Source: Acidilobaceae archaeon
Lineage (GTDB): Archaea > Thermoproteota > Thermoprotei_A > Sulfolobales > Acidilobaceae
Direction: 5' to 3'
DNA: 42,544 nucleotides
Assembly (NCBI GenBank): GCA_028276165.1
Contig: JAPYWV010000002.1
Location: 1 to 42,544, forward strand
This document shows positions 24,931 through 30,892 of this stretch, piece by piece. The notes beneath the pieces are model-generated. The model was not told where the DNA came from, ran no database searches, and saw nothing but the letters and a program-made list of their open reading frames with translations. Within the stretch, counting starts at the first letter, position 1; each line of letters opens with the position of its first letter. The position numbers were made by a program, and so were the translations under genes.

Positions 24931-25899
24931 TTGGAGGCGGTGGGTGTGGGTGAGAGGAGGATAAGGGATATAACTGATCTTCCAAACGTAGGCCCTAGTA
25001 CTGCTCAGAAGCTTATCGATGCTGGTTATACGACTATAGAGGCTATAGCCGTGGCCACCCCCCATGAGCTATCTCAGGTTACTGGCATCCCGTTACCTAC
25101 AGCTCAGAGGATTATTGAGGCTGCTAGGGAGGCTCTCGATATTAGGGTGAAGACAGCCTTGGATCTCAAGAGGGAGAGGATGAAGGTTAGGAGGATTACG
25201 ACTGGTAGTAAGAGCCTCGATGAACTCCTCGGTGGTGGAATCGAGACCAGGACTATAACGGAGTTCTTCGGCGAGTATGGTACCGGGAAGACTCAGATAT
25301 GCCACCAGCTATCTGTTAACGTGCAACTACCAGAGGATAAGGGTGGTTTGGCTGCTAAGGCATTCTACATAGACACTGAGGGTACCTTCAGGTGGGAGAG
25401 GATCGAGCAGATGGCTCGTGGCGTTGGCCTAGATCCCGATAAGGTTATGGAGAACATATACTGGGTTAGGGCTGTTAACAGCCACCACCAGATGGCTATT
25501 GTTGAGAAGCTCTTCGACCTGATGAGCAAGGAGAATATAAAGTTGGTGGTTGTAGACTCTCTTACAGGGCACTTTAGAGCAGAGTTCCCTGGGAGGGAGA
25601 ACCTGGCCATGAGACAACAGTTTCTAAACAAGCACTTACACCAGCTTATGAGGCTAGCTGAGATATACGATGCAGCCGTTGTTGTAACAAACCAGGTCAT
25701 GGCAGTACCTGAGATGTTCTTCGGTAGCCCTGATAGGCCTGTCGGAGGACACGTTGTAGGCCACGCTCCAGGTGTTAGGGTTCAGCTTAGGAAGAGTAAG
25801 GGTAATAGGAGGATTGCTAGGGTTGTTGATGCACCACACCTACCTGAGGGGGAGACACAGTTCGCCATAACAGAGTATGGGATTAGAGATGTTGAGTAG
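24931..25899 (+). CDS. radA: DNA repair and recombination protein RadA
   Basis: The archaeal RecA/Rad51 recombinase (322 aa), which forms filaments on single-stranded DNA for strand exchange. N-terminal helix-hairpin-helix domain (residues 13-70: [17 protein letters not shown]), linker, then ATPase core with Walker A GEYGTGKT at 114-121 and Walker [12 protein letters not shown]; the [28 protein letters not shown] loops are typical. The start is TTG at 24931, with an AT-rich TATA-like stretch about 25 bases upstream, so the message is probably almost leaderless. The prepilin peptidase begins 16 bases after its stop. Confidence 0.97.
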
Positions 25900-25915
25900 A
25901 GGGTGTTCAGCCTAG

Positions 25916-26587
25916 TTGCTGGAATGGATGCCAGCTGTTTACACGCTACTAGTGCTAGCCATAGCAGGCGTCCTAGACGTTAGGTCGAGGGAGATCCCCC
26001 CATGGTACTGGCTGGTAGCCGTAGCGGTGGGGCTCCCCATCACAGTAGCTGTTTACAGAGGGGATCTAGGGGTTCTCATAGCCTACCAGGTGCTATCACT
26101 TGTAGTAGTCATACCGTCCTACATCATGTACAGGTATTGCATGCTAGGCGGGGCTGACGTACTAGCTTTCCTCGTAATAGCAATACTATCACCGGTAAGA
26201 CCGGGTAGCATAATACCATTACTGTACCTAGCAGTACTCTACGCAGTAGCACCAGCCATAGCGTACCACCTCTACTCAGCCTGGATAGCCTGTAACGGGT
26301 TTAAGGTTGGATGCATGTCTAGGATGAAGTTTAAGGTTAAGGTTAGAACGATAGTCGAGGACCCGAGATTCAAATGGTGGCTTGTAGACGTTAAGGGGGA
26401 GTGTAGCGTGGAAGGGGATCCCAGAGCTCTAGCCTTAAAAGCAGGACAGGGGGATCTAGATGCATACATAGATGCCACGCCAGGACACCCGTACGTAGCA
26501 CACCTAGCCATAGGGTACCTTGTAGCTATAGCAATAGGGGATAGACCTATACTAGAGCTCGTGACAGCCCTAGCTAAGCTCGTGTAG
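25916..26587 (+). CDS. archaeal type IV prepilin peptidase (A24 family)
   Basis: A 223-residue membrane aspartic protease that trims class III signal peptides of archaellins and pilins. Catalytic Asp21 lies in GVLDVRSREIP and Asp81 in the GxGD-type motif, here GGAD (MLGGADVLAF). About five or six membrane helices are visible, with a soluble insert (residues about 133-185) containing KFKVKVRTIVEDPRFKWW, seen in crenarchaeal relatives. The start codon (TTG at 25916) lies close to the radA stop, suggesting co-transcription. Confidence 0.88.
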   Translation: MLEWMPAVYTLLVLAIAGVLDVRSREIPPWYWLVAVAVGLPITVAVYRGDLGVLIAYQVLSLVVVIPSYIMYRYCMLGGADVLAFLVIAILSPVRPGSIIPLLYLAVLYAVAPAIAYHLYSAWIACNGFKVGCMSRMKFKVKVRTIVEDPRFKWWLVDVKGECSVEGDPRALALKAGQGDLDAYIDATPGHPYVAHLAIGYLVAIAIGDRPILELVTALAKLV

Positions 26588-26609
26588 CGGGGGAGAGCGG
26601 TAGCACGTA

Positions 26610-27032
26610 GTGTGGTATATACGATCCTATAAAAGCAACGGCCATAAGGGGTCTCCTATTGGGTGTTATGGTTTGTGGGTTAGGTTCGCTAAAGAATCCA
26701 TAATACCTGAGGGTACGGGTAGGGTTAAGTTCTTCGGTGGGATACCAGTGATGGTCCTCAGGAGTAATGGTCAGCTCTACGCCTACGTAGCCTTATGCAA
26801 CCATAAGTACTATGTTCTATGCGAGAGGGCCATCAAGGATGGTAAGATCCTGTGCCCAGGCCACGGGGAGGTCTTCATAGCGACAACGGGGGAGCCAACC
26901 CAGCGTATGGCTAAGAGGAGTTTGATCAGGTTAAACCATGAGGTTAAGGACGGCTTTGTGTACGTCGAGCTCCCTCCAAGAGATGTTATAGAGAGCATAG
27001 CATCAGAATCCCTAGTGGAGGGTCAAGCCTAA
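26610..27032 (+). CDS. Rieske [2Fe-2S] protein, soluble
   Basis: A small Rieske ferredoxin-like protein: Cys63-x-His65 in LCNHKY and Cys82-x2-His85 in LCPGHGEVF bind the 2Fe-2S cluster. There is no membrane helix, so it is a soluble electron carrier or oxygenase-ferredoxin rather than a cytochrome bc subunit. The first 20-22 residues (WYIRSYKSNGHKG...) do not look family-like; a TTG at residue 22 (LWVRFAKESI) is the more probable start, giving about 119 residues. The partner enzyme is not evident. Confidence 0.85.
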   Translation: MWYIRSYKSNGHKGSPIGCYGLWVRFAKESIIPEGTGRVKFFGGIPVMVLRSNGQLYAYVALCNHKYYVLCERAIKDGKILCPGHGEVFIATTGEPTQRMAKRSLIRLNHEVKDGFVYVELPPRDVIESIASESLVEGQA

Positions 27033-27089: not shown

Positions 27090-27977
27090 TTGAGCTTAGA
27101 GTTGGTCCTCATAGGTTTCTCGACTGTAGAAGCTATACCATTGTACCACTTGTACCCTGGTGGGGTTGCTCTAAGGCTTCTCTCCAAGCCTATGAGGTCT
27201 CTTAACTGCGAGTACGATCTTGATGTGTGTGAGTGGGCTAGGGGGCCTGAGGTTTTCGTAAGCGTTAGTATACCCTTCAGTGTTGTTGAAAACCTTATGT
27301 CCAGGTGGGGTTGCGATATAGTGTTCCTCGATGGCCTCGAACCCCTGGAGTTCTTCAAGGTGGGGTATTTGAGGGAGCGTTTAGGCCCTCATGTCACCCT
27401 AGCTTCTAGAGCTCATGGTTTCACAGATGTTAGGGTTGAGGTCGACTACTACCTGGTCGAGGATCTATCTGTTATCGTGGGTGACGAGGTTATCCGGAGG
27501 AATGTGGTTAGGTTTGTTGAGGGCCTCCAATCCAAGGGTAAACCCTTCGAGCTCCACGTGTACATAGACAACCCCTACGTTGAAGAACTAGGGGATATAG
27601 TTGGTGTAGCTGAGAGCTCGGGAGCACCACTACACGTTACAGTACAAAACCCTAGGGGTGGGGGGCCTGTTAGGAGCCTCTACGAGCAGCTCAGGAGGAG
27701 GGTTGGAGTAGTCTACGTGCACACAAGGATATACGATGAGGTGGATACAAGATGCCCGAAATGCGATACAATACTACTCTACAGATCTGGAGGAGCCCTT
27801 AGAGGGGTTAACCTGAGGGATTCAACGTGCCCGAAATGCGGGACGAAGATACAGATCACAGGGGCTGTGAGAGGGAAGACTAGGGAGTCCCTGTTGAAGA
27901 TAGCTAGAGGTGGGGTCGTATGGTACAACCCGCTCTTCTACAAGAGCCTCCAGGCTGGTAGAGCCCACAGCCCCTAG
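27090..27977 (+). CDS. degenerate AmmeMemoRadiSam-type radical SAM protein
   Basis: The C-terminal part matches radical SAM proteins of the AmmeMemoRadiSam group, which end in two zinc-ribbon-like CxxC pairs: Cys222/Cys225 in TRCPKCDTILL and Cys247/Cys250 in STCPKCGTKI. The preceding domain could be the barrel (for example ELHVYIDNP and VYVHTRIYDE). However, the CX3CX2C site for the 4Fe-4S cluster is absent; the only N-terminal cysteines are Cys40 and Cys47 with the wrong spacing. The protein is therefore probably not a working radical SAM enzyme. Start TTG at 27090. Convergent with rnz. Confidence 0.55.
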   Translation: MSLELVLIGFSTVEAIPLYHLYPGGVALRLLSKPMRSLNCEYDLDVCEWARGPEVFVSVSIPFSVVENLMSRWGCDIVFLDGLEPLEFFKVGYLRERLGPHVTLASRAHGFTDVRVEVDYYLVEDLSVIVGDEVIRRNVVRFVEGLQSKGKPFELHVYIDNPYVEELGDIVGVAESSGAPLHVTVQNPRGGGPVRSLYEQLRRRVGVVYVHTRIYDEVDTRCPKCDTILLYRSGGALRGVNLRDSTCPKCGTKIQITGAVRGKTRESLLKIARGGVVWYNPLFYKSLQAGRAHSP

Positions 27978-27990
27978 ATCCTACACCATA

Positions 27991-28941
27991 TCATCTAACA
28001 CTGTGAGCTCCAAGGGTTACCCTTAGTAGGTCTCTCGCTAGTATAGTGTTAGGGAACACCCCCCGAGCCTCCTCTAGGAGCCTCCGAGCCTCGAAACCCC
28101 TATACCTAGAGCTTATGTGGGTTAGGGCTAGGAGCTCCACGTCAGCCTCCCTAGCTTTTAAGGCTGCATCCCTCGACGTACTATGCCCCCTGCTGGTAGC
28201 CTCTGATTCCAGCTCTGAGTGGAACGTCGAATCATGTATTAGGATTCTCGATCCTCTAACGCTCTCAACGTACACGTCACAGGGGGCTGTGTCACCTGTG
28301 TACGAGAGTTTAACGGTCACACCCCTAGCTTCAACTACATCCTCGAGTTTAACCCTGACATCACCCACCCTAACCTCCCCCCTCTCAATCAAATCCCTAA
28401 TCCAGGGTCCTGGTTTTAGACCGAGGGCCTCCACCCTCTCAATGCTAACCCTAGGTCTAAGCCTCCACTCTAAGGTGTAGCCGTAGGCTTCAACAGTATG
28501 GCATACGGGGAACCAGCCTAAGGTTAGGGTATCACCAGAGCTCCTACCCACCTCAATGGAGCCCCTACCCCTAGCTACCACAACATCCACCTCGAAGCCA
28601 AGCCCATCCTCTCCAGCGAGCGCCTCGCTGATAAACTGTGCTACGCTAGCTGGAGCAACAATCGTGAGCCTCCTGGATCTACCACTAACATACATGGACT
28701 GGAGTAACCCCGGGAGCCCGTTAACGTGATCGCCGTGCTCGTGGGTGATAGCTATAACGTCTATAGATGAGGGTGACACGTTGAGCTGAGCTAGCCTAAA
28801 CTGAGCACCCTCACCTACATCTAGCAGTATTACATCACCCATCCTATCCCTAACAAGTATGCCTGGTAGGAACCTCTCAGTAGTAGGTAGGGTGGCACCC
28901 GTCCCAAGGAATGTAATCTCAGCCAGGTACCCTAAGTTCAA
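27991..28941 (-). CDS. rnz: ribonuclease Z (tRNA 3' endonuclease)
   Basis: A metallo-beta-lactamase-fold nuclease that removes 3' trailers from tRNA precursors (316 aa). The metal-binding motif HxHxDH is His67, His69, Asp71, His72 in THEHGDHVNGL; the N-terminus has EITFLGTGATLPTTERF, and SYTGDTAPC plus LTHISSRY supply the remaining ligands. This is the short archaeal/bacterial form. Start TTG at 28941. It is the last gene of a reverse-strand group with trm-G10 and PRPP synthase. Confidence 0.93.
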   Translation of the reverse strand: MNLGYLAEITFLGTGATLPTTERFLPGILVRDRMGDVILLDVGEGAQFRLAQLNVSPSSIDVIAITHEHGDHVNGLPGLLQSMYVSGRSRRLTIVAPASVAQFISEALAGEDGLGFEVDVVVARGRGSIEVGRSSGDTLTLGWFPVCHTVEAYGYTLEWRLRPRVSIERVEALGLKPGPWIRDLIERGEVRVGDVRVKLEDVVEARGVTVKLSYTGDTAPCDVYVESVRGSRILIHDSTFHSELESEATSRGHSTSRDAALKAREADVELLALTHISSRYRGFEARRLLEEARGVFPNTILARDLLRVTLGAHSVR

Positions 28942-28994: not shown

Positions 28995-30008
28995 CTAGAC
29001 CCTGGCTACAACGACCTCCCTTACGAGGGAGCCGTGAACGAACATATGGTGTCTTGATACAACCTCAAGCCCCACCCTCCGCGCTATAACCCATGGGCTC
29101 CTCTCGTAGGGCCCAGCGTAGACCACGTAGCCACCCCTCCTTAGGACTCTCCTAGCCTCCCTTAGGAATTCGAGTGCTAGCTCCTCGTAGCCAACACCTT
29201 TTGTTGAAGCTGATCTACCGTATGGAGGGTCTGTTGCTATAGCATCAACACTCTCATCAGCTAACGGTATCGCCATCGAGTTTGATCGCGCTACCAAGCT
29301 TACATTACACCCGTAGTGTTCGAGGTTCTTGAGAGCCCCTAGTGTAGCCTCACCATCTATATCACCACATATCACCCTCGACGCTCCTAGGAGGCATGCC
29401 TCGATAGCGAAGCCCCCGACGCCGCAGAAGGGGTCTAGGAACACGCCACCTCTTCTTAACCTCGATAGGTTTACGAAGAGCCTCGATAGCTTGGGTGAGA
29501 GGGTTCCAGGTTTAAAGTACGGCCTCCTCCTAGGCATTCTATCAACGAAGCCCCCCGCCTCCCTTGAAGCCAACCTAACCCCAGCTACTGATACACCCTC
29601 TGTCACCATAACCCTTAACATCCTATCGCTATCAAGACTACACCTGACGCCTAAGCCTGAGAGCATTCTAACGAGATCCGGCTCCGAGTAGAACCCGTAA
29701 CCCTTATACCTTGACACCTCGACCCTCACACTACCACCCCTTAGAGCCTGGGCAACCTCCTTAACCCATGAGGGTTCTAGGTGGTCTGAGCCTATCGTTA
29801 CGAGCTCCCCAACCTCCCTCACGTAGCCAGCCCTAGACACTACGACCCCGGGGTCCTCTAGTACGGCTTTGAATACTGCGACACCTTCAAAGACATGCTC
29901 TATGACGTAGCCCTTAGACTCGACTTCGAGTATGGCCTTAAGCTCCTCTAAAGCTAAACCCTCATAGTCGCCTGAGAGGATGGCATAGAATGATCTTAGC
30001 TCACCCAC
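28995..30008 (-). CDS. tRNA (guanine-10-N2) dimethyltransferase, Trm-G10 type
   Basis: A 337-residue methyltransferase with an N-terminal THUMP domain (about residues 45-150) and a C-terminal Rossmann methylase. FLDPFCGVGGFAIEA binds SAM, and ATDPPYGRS is the DPPY catalytic motif for N2-guanine methylation. In archaea the enzyme makes m2G/m22G at position 10 of tRNA, stabilising tRNA at high temperature. Its start overlaps the end of the PRPP synthase gene by 13 bases, and RNase Z follows after 53 bases, giving a tRNA maturation group. Confidence 0.9.
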   Translation of the reverse strand: MGELRSFYAILSGDYEGLALEELKAILEVESKGYVIEHVFEGVAVFKAVLEDPGVVVSRAGYVREVGELVTIGSDHLEPSWVKEVAQALRGGSVRVEVSRYKGYGFYSEPDLVRMLSGLGVRCSLDSDRMLRVMVTEGVSVAGVRLASREAGGFVDRMPRRRPYFKPGTLSPKLSRLFVNLSRLRRGGVFLDPFCGVGGFAIEACLLGASRVICGDIDGEATLGALKNLEHYGCNVSLVARSNSMAIPLADESVDAIATDPPYGRSASTKGVGYEELALEFLREARRVLRRGGYVVYAGPYERSPWVIARRVGLEVVSRHHMFVHGSLVREVVVARV

Positions 30009-30892
30009 CTGGCTATCTCACCTGCAACAAGCGGGGTTACATCGATAACCTTAAGGGCTTGGTGGTCTGGTTGTGGTAGCGTATTGGATGTTGTGATCCT
30101 CGATACACCAGCCCCTAGAACCCTCTCAAGAGCCCCTGGTAGGTTGAGGTTATGTACTACGATCACCTGGACACTCCTAGCACCCCTCTCCAGGAGGATC
30201 CTAGAGGCTTCAGCTAGGGTGCCACCAGTACTTAGTATGTCGTCTACGACCACCACATCGAGCCCCCTTGGGTCCAGGGAGCCTGCGTCCATCGAGATGA
30301 CACCTGTAACCCTATCCCTCACCTTGGCAATGTACGAGCTCCTAGCACCTAGAGCTTCAGCAACACCCCTAGCCCTACTAATGCCACCTAGATCGGGTGA
30401 TACTACGAGGACGTCGCCCCCGAGCCCTGAGAGTTTAGCCATGTAGGGTAGGGGGTTAACGTTTACAACGTAGCCTGGGAAGTGGGATAGAGCTCTCTCG
30501 CTATGAGCTTCAACAACAATAAGCCTCCTAACACCAAGACCGTGTAGGGTCTTGAGGATAGCTCTAACGCTAACAGGCTCCCCGGCCAGGAAAACCCTAT
30601 CCTGCCTCGCGTAGGGGAGGTAGGGTGCGAATAGGGTGATGTCACCGGCGCCAGCCTCGACAAGAGCGTCGACTAAGAGCATGAGCTCGACCAACGCATC
30701 ATTCTGAGGGGGCTCCATAGACTGTACTACAATGACATCCTCACCTTTAACACTAGAGGTAACTCTAACGTAGAGCTCACCATCAGGGAACCTCTTACCC
30801 TCAACAACCGTGAACCTCAGGTTAAGCCTTGAGGCTAGGAGCTCCCCCAGAAGCCTACTATGAGCTCTTGAACCGGAGACCACGATAGCCAA
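29996..30892 (-). CDS. prs: ribose-phosphate pyrophosphokinase (PRPP synthase)
   Basis: Makes PRPP from ribose 5-phosphate and ATP for nucleotide and histidine/tryptophan synthesis. Two phosphoribosyltransferase-like domains are present: KRFPDGELYVRV and FAPYLPYARQDRVF in the first half, and the PRPP loop VVVDDILSTGGT with the AKVRDR catalytic segment in the second. Length (298 aa) matches archaeal enzymes. First gene of an overlapping pair with Trm-G10. The phosphoribosyltransferase at 18938 is a potential user of its product elsewhere in the window. Confidence 0.93.
   Translation of the reverse strand: MAIVVSGSRAHSRLLGELLASRLNLRFTVVEGKRFPDGELYVRVTSSVKGEDVIVVQSMEPPQNDALVELMLLVDALVEAGAGDITLFAPYLPYARQDRVFLAGEPVSVRAILKTLHGLGVRRLIVVEAHSERALSHFPGYVVNVNPLPYMAKLSGLGGDVLVVSPDLGGISRARGVAEALGARSSYIAKVRDRVTGVISMDAGSLDPRGLDVVVVDDILSTGGTLAEASRILLERGARSVQVIVVHNLNLPGALERVLGAGVSRITTSNTLPQPDHQALKVIDVTPLVAGEIARWVS

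Follow-up and report, generated by a model that had tools for sequence, protein, structure and literature searches.

The gene at 27,090 to 27,977 of the window (the whole 42,544-nucleotide stretch of Acidilobaceae archaeon DNA analyzed here) encodes what appears to be a pseudoenzyme derived by duplication of an AmmeMemoRadiSam enzyme, and the reading that we prefer, at a probability of about 0.5, is that its product serves as a non-catalytic partner subunit which would dock the substrate of the catalytic enzyme or activate it. In what follows, "working enzyme" denotes the normal AmmeMemoRadiSam radical-SAM enzyme (NCBIfam TIGR04337), and "short" denotes the gene, protein or family of the paralogue typified by the window protein. 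Families of organisms carry the labels f1, f2 and so on; we take f1 to include Aeropyrum, Acidilobus and Caldisphaera, f3 to be that of Ignisphaera, f7 that of Pyrolobus and f8 probably that of Fervidicoccus. Features are collected in Table 1.

Table 1. Location of the short gene, its sequence elements and its neighbours in the window
Feature	Position	Strand	Basis or remark
Putative pseudo-radical-SAM paralogue of the AmmeMemoRadiSam enzyme, 295 aa	27090..27977	+	Motif, profile, fold, dN/dS
STVEAIPLYHLYPGG, residues 11-25	27120..27164	+	Corresponds to DPIEKKPLxHFxPGS of working enzyme
Eroded iron-sulfur loop, C40-EYDLDV-C47	27207..27230	+	Alignments
DGLEPL, residues 81-86, degraded GGEPL / YTYNEPT at the GGE-type SAM-binding position	27330..27347	+	
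E154	27549..27551	+	Invariant in short family and aligned working enzymes
H182	27633..27635	+	From working enzyme; 30/30 f1 rows; absent in f3
Y209-V-H211	27714..27722	+	Y209 retained; H211 invariant in f1, G in working enzymes
Zinc-ribbon-like C-terminal module, C222/C225/C247/C250	27753..27839	+	Profile scans, alignment
Rieske protein, co-directional upstream neighbour, outside the system	26610..27032	+	
RNase Z-like metallo-beta-lactamase fold protein, convergent, conserved block	27991..28941	-	
TIGR01177-type methyltransferase, conserved block	28995..30008	-	
Ribose-phosphate diphosphokinase (PRPP synthetase), conserved block	29996..30892	-	

The window gene and its product

The reading frame opens with TTG and runs through 295 residues with zero internal stops. 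As the initial annotation had claimed, a scan of the full 295-residue sequence found no C-x3-C-x2-C motif; the seven cysteines lie at residues 40, 47, 75, 222, 225, 247 and 250, the last four as two CPKC pairs (222-225 and 247-250). Near the N-terminus, the segment STVEAIPLYHLYPGG retains E14, P17, H20 and G24 of the working enzyme. Scans for promoters and terminators gave no signal that clearly exceeded shuffled sequence.

We observed a dN/dS of 0.21 between the window gene and its nearest relative (G002) and of 0.11-0.15 in six further pairs of short genes, for an overall range of 0.11-0.21 in the seven of eight pairs that were computable; one pair (L001/L003) is near-saturated at a dS of 2.9 and carries little weight, and another (L010/L021) was fully saturated and yielded no value. 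The window gene is under purifying selection, and its product is almost certainly functional, in agreement with the original view of an intact gene.

Kinship with the working enzyme and predicted fold

Searches with the window protein as a single sequence revealed only its C-terminal part or next to nothing. Pfam detected a zinc ribbon only (best E 0.0011), TIGR04337 matched at E 0.012 over residues 200-255 only, with 14.5 bits against a curated cut-off of 220 bits, and a PDB sequence search returned a sole match at E 0.2. By hhalign, the profile of the short family aligned with that of five working enzymes over residues 8-270 (255 columns) with a probability of 99.3 and an E-value of 5.3e-20, the latter being that of a single comparison of two profiles, with no unrelated radical-SAM protein as a control. 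An intermediate sequence, an f4 member, matches TIGR04337 at 7.8e-16. When the f1 profile was run against the window's genome, it recovered itself and then only two AmmeMemoRadiSam-type proteins (5.1e-11 and 6.5e-11), with both matches confined to the C-terminal, zinc-ribbon part; because the f1 profile reaches only the ribbon, kinship of the barrel rests on the profile-profile comparison, the intermediate sequences and the fold.

An AlphaFold model of the window protein, built on a nine-row alignment, reached a pLDDT of 88.5 and a pTM of 0.88. The top structural match by VIA-align was the PFL activating enzyme (3c8f, Z 14.2, 2.9 Å, 198 residues aligned; also 3cb8), followed by QueE, NifB and viperin, and the best entries listed were all radical-SAM proteins. 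Foldseek gave modest E-values, the best being 3.9e-4 (BlsE). The likeness to the PFL activating enzyme lies in the partial barrel, whereas identity is 9%, and the window protein lacks the cluster motif and has an added C-terminal zinc ribbon. Modelling of the working enzyme gave a poor result, with a pLDDT of 66.7, and the Foldseek matches of this model were mostly radical-SAM proteins. As modelled, the window protein is a radical-SAM partial (beta/alpha)6 barrel. Structure prediction had been named beforehand as the test on which the assignment could fail, and the barrel was found.

We have little doubt that the window protein and the AmmeMemoRadiSam enzyme share a common descent, and the kinship first proposed is borne out by hhalign and by alignments. 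An unrelated zinc-ribbon protein was considered and rejected, since profile-profile comparison and fold reveal a barrel despite the ribbon-only or short matches in Pfam and PDB. The window's genome also encodes, on another contig, a normal working enzyme that scores above the cut-off (G000:C68:4666-5655), so that the window protein is a paralogue and not the AmmeMemoRadiSam enzyme itself. It shares with the TIGR04337 enzyme the fold, the four-cysteine C-terminal ribbon, the ExxPLxHxxPG element, E154, H182, Y209, T220, R232 and the genome slot, but it differs in lacking CX3CX2C and the N-terminal four-cysteine knuckle, and most SAM-site residues are gone. A dedicated AMMECR1/Memo operon around the window gene was also rejected, since the matches to Memo (G000:C127) and AMMECR1 (G000:C120) lie on other contigs of this genome.

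Distribution and phylogeny of the short family

Matches at E ≤0.001 were obtained in 76 of 98 related genomes, many of them to the working enzyme's zinc ribbon, and clear full-length homologues occur in many genera across the same family. We assembled 61 loci (54 from the related-genome search, four added by the 299-genome search described next, in G053, G072, G082 and G078, and three f8 loci from G054, G064 and G090), all of which fall in one archaeal order. With a profile that included motif-keeping members, a search of 299 genomes of the phylum gave 20 loci with at least 146 bits, all in the window's order, and the next matches scored at most 118 bits; two matches from below this gap that we examined (L129 and L130) are ordinary enzymes. 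Diverged members can nonetheless score below the gap, as an f8 member (G054, 88.6 bits) and a second copy in G008 (115.7 bits) do.

In a tree, the short family formed a single clade, and the working enzymes stood opposite it, with a support of 100 for each; f1 was one group (88), and the inter-family branches, at 83-90, leave the order of families weakly supported. This tree omits 11 rows that were redundant or nearly identical to others (L008, L013, L014, L024, L029, L071, L078 and the actives L034, L042, L046, L050), as well as G044, in which the gene is interrupted by N, G072, and family f8, which was found later; its 15 "active" rows were drawn from 30 loci, from a pair in the window's genome and from a pair found in the 299-genome search. 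The initial annotation had offered a pseudoenzyme or a sister family as alternatives, and the two merge here: the paralogues make up a sister family of their own, which apparently turned pseudoenzyme.

The short protein diverges faster than the working enzyme in 14 of 14 genome pairs. Identities between G000 and G017, for example, are 0.35 for the short protein and 0.71 for the working enzyme, and between G060 and G050, where the short protein has an intact CX3CX2C, they are 0.46 and 0.81. Such fast divergence, even where the motif is intact, could reflect an independent role.

Several observations concern individual lineages. One genus has a second, more diverged degenerate copy that lies close to the working enzyme in divergent orientation (L083 in G008, L084 in G020, L078 in G028), and G028 holds both this copy and one of the tandem type described below. 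AMMECR1 was unmatched in three f4 genomes (G060, G070 and G079, one of them 97% complete), two of which carry a short paralogue with intact CX3CX2C adjoining the working enzyme. AMMECR1 of the window's genus (G000-G005), where the short gene and the working enzyme are not linked, scores 134-154 bits, below nearly all of the others, which mostly reach 160-200.

Erosion of the iron-sulfur site

Of the 61 loci, nine keep CX3CX2C, six of them in f3 and three in f4, and 52, the interrupted gene of G044 among them, lack it; relatives that lack the cysteines, for which a search had been suggested at the outset, do exist, and the existence of others that keep the motif goes beyond what was first noted. 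The usual loss, outside f8 and parts of f1, is of cysteine 1, with cysteines 2 and 3 retained. Residual loops read GYTYRCEGCPW in f10, APWRCRYCSW in f7, GCATCPW in f5 and ECNTCSIG in a second f1 copy. Within f1, 31 of 36 rows have two loop cysteines at spacings from C-x3-C to C-x10-C; of those without a pair, four, from genus g10, keep one cysteine and L026 has none. The f8 loop has one cysteine or none.

In the window protein, alignment suggests that C40 and C47 correspond best to motif cysteines 2 and 3, with cysteine 1 lost and a longer intervening loop. C40 lies 26 residues past the conserved E, and is placed as cysteine 2 since that position is at 25 and cysteine 1 at 21. The spacing of C40 and C47 equals that of cysteines 1 to 3, and C40 could be read as cysteine 1; as a matter of alignment judgement we set this reading aside because relatives without the longer loop retain cysteines 2 and 3, which are invariant in a 13-row alignment. 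The proposal that the iron-sulfur site has been lost therefore holds for cysteine 1 but not for the whole site, of which C40 and C47 remain. The GGE-type position is GGEPL in f4, GAEPL in f10 and DGLEPL in the window protein, which retains the E and P of GGEP; among 30 f1 rows, E is found in 63% and P in 57%.

Invariant positions in an alignment of 22 members are G9, E14, H20, G24, E154, H182, Y209, H211, T220, C222, C225, R232, C247 and C250. Each of the 30 f1 rows in the tree retains E14, H20, G24, E154, H182, Y209, T220, R232 and the four zinc cysteines, and at least 80% of them retain P17, P23, D119 and P180; what the f1 rows have lost is cysteine 1, the N-terminal knuckle, QNWxISQ, TNG and DFKG. 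The knuckle columns (C48, C51, C55, C65) are missing from the window protein and present in most rows of f4, f7 and f10. By alignment, then, the cofactor side is lost in f1 and other conserved positions persist, and these retained positions may line a substrate pocket. Family f3 is a counter-example, in which the cysteines are kept but H20, H182 and Y209 are lost. The original suggestion that only the zinc module was kept did not stand, as the protein also has the barrel and several conserved residues away from the cofactor side. When regain was disallowed, four losses of the motif were counted on the tree (in f10, f7, f5 and f1), and an unconstrained count gave 2; a single loss was not rejected by an AU test (p 0.0965, tree without f8).

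Gene order

At 31 of 54 loci, in 13 of 19 genera and in families f1, f4 and f10, the short gene immediately precedes that of the working enzyme and is read in the same direction (adjacency being defined as same strand and ≤120 bp between matched sequences); three f8 loci have the same order, for 34 in all. This tandem arrangement had not been part of the initial annotation. Among 21 tandem loci read, some of them near-copies, a possible start codon of the working enzyme overlaps the stop of the short gene at an offset of -4 in six and -1 in two; the sole start ahead of the conserved region is such a codon in L075, L076, L080 (-13) and L149 (-28), and the listed reading frames overlap by 10 bases in L168 and by 8 in L169. 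Overlapping starts are accordingly a possible feature of these loci, as read from the sequence. The two genes are not adjacent in the window's genus, in genus g13, or in f3, f5 and f7, which weakens the case for their co-production where the window is concerned. Many relatives have a working enzyme without a short gene, so that the short protein is not generally required for its activity.

In the conserved block that surrounds these genes, RNase Z, a methyltransferase and PRPP synthetase form one flank and a GPN-type GTPase forms the other ("GPN" being our interpretation of Pfam ATP_bind_1). In f2 and f9, which lack the short gene, the working enzyme stands alone between PRPP synthetase and the GPN-type GTPase in all four loci that were read, and local duplication is therefore the simplest origin of the short gene. 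PRPP synthetase immediately adjoins the short gene at 20 of 44 distinct loci, and the relative orientation of the two genes varies. In G001 (L102) and G004 (L067) PRPP synthetase comes next after the short gene on the same strand, whereas in most relatives the two are divergent.

Upstream of the short gene, at 24931-27032, radA, an A24 prepilin-type peptidase gene and the gene for the small Rieske protein form a co-directional run, which recurs in G002 (L100). A lipoate-ligase-like gene occurs near the short paralogue in f7 and f8 (L115, L116, L117, L168, L169), identified by Pfam LplA-B_cat in L168 and by eye in the other four.

Origin and role of the short protein

In an ancestor that belonged to a single archaeal order, we propose, the gene for the AmmeMemoRadiSam enzyme was duplicated, probably as a tandem copy at the original locus. 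The barrel and the zinc ribbon would have been retained in the duplicate, along with several conserved residues not involved with the cofactor, and the side that binds the cluster and SAM would have been lost, namely cysteine 1, the N-terminal four-cysteine knuckle, QNWxISQ, TNG and DFKG. From its sequence, canonical radical-SAM catalysis by the window protein is very improbable. That the short protein became a partner subunit of the working enzyme, acting in substrate docking or activation, has in our estimate roughly an even chance. A bolder version, in which the two proteins form an obligate heteromer, with the pseudo-subunit holding the substrate and the two leftover cysteines contributing to a shared or remodelled metal site, we regard as improbable; if true, the archaeal AmmeMemoRadiSam enzyme would be a split, two-subunit radical-SAM machine, and the pseudo-subunit a direct handle on its substrate.

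The main rival is a later independent role in the window's genus. The short protein would use its zinc ribbon and former pocket to bind a metabolite or RNA, and might serve, for example, as a regulator tied to PRPP supply or tRNA processing; it would no longer act with a radical-SAM enzyme. In that genus the gene is indeed unlinked from the working enzyme and still beside the RNase Z, methyltransferase and PRPP synthetase genes, and both the recurrent contact with PRPP synthetase, including its same-strand downstream position in G001 and G004, and the rapid divergence of the family point the same way. The working enzyme itself adjoins PRPP synthetase in f2 and f9, however, which argues that the neighbourhood was inherited, and an independent binding protein leaves unexplained both the residues retained from the working enzyme and the gene overlap; we therefore consider this possible but unlikely. 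Rather less likely is an altered metal or redox protein, in which C40 and C47 would form a disulfide or bind a metal or another kind of cluster, a site that a partner might complete, so that redox chemistry persists. The constancy of cysteines 2 and 3 in the 13-row alignment and the two loop cysteines of most f1 rows are in its favor, yet the spacing in f1 is variable, five f1 rows lack the pair, and f8 has one cysteine or none although its genes are in tandem. Moreover, disulfides are common in hyperthermophilic archaea, and a disulfide is an ordinary reading of this cysteine pair. As for a non-functional, decaying gene or an assembly artefact, the fast sequence change, the stepwise loss of the motif and a stop near the 3' end in some relatives might be taken as signs of decay, but frames are intact in nearly all relatives in many genera, and the purifying selection recorded above (dN/dS 0.11-0.21) led us to reject this explanation, which is scarcely credible. 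The partner subunit remains the reading that we prefer.

Relation to known pseudoenzymes

Pseudo-SAM families such as TIGR04347 can pair with genuine radical-SAM genes. NCBIfam already names TIGR04347 a "pseudo-SAM/SPASM protein", and by that name it resembles the short family as a radical-SAM relative outside the catalytic set; the window protein, in contrast, belongs to a different family, with no match to TIGR04347 at E-values up to 5 in the NCBIfam scan, and one of 13 members of A5 touched TIGR04347 (2.1e-4). Radical-SAM pseudoenzymes are thus already known as a kind, of which the AmmeMemoRadiSam pseudo-paralogue is a new variant. In the open-licence literature that we searched, we found no paper on such a paralogue and no reaction assigned to the AmmeMemoRadiSam system.

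A parallel is provided by the trypanosome AdoMetDC prozyme and deoxyhypusine synthase pseudo-paralogue, for which complex formation and activation are described (PMC5201418, PMC3663545). They resemble the archaeal pair in that one genome encodes both a dead and a live paralogue, and in the proposed mode of action; the folds and organisms are unrelated, and complex formation and activation, established there, are proposed for the archaeal pair.

A partner that lacks the cofactor side but has the non-cofactor residues may mark which residues of the AmmeMemoRadiSam enzyme face its substrate, and may offer a handle for co-purification. The series from an intact motif to none, within one archaeal order, is a natural case of an iron-sulfur enzyme becoming a pseudoenzyme.
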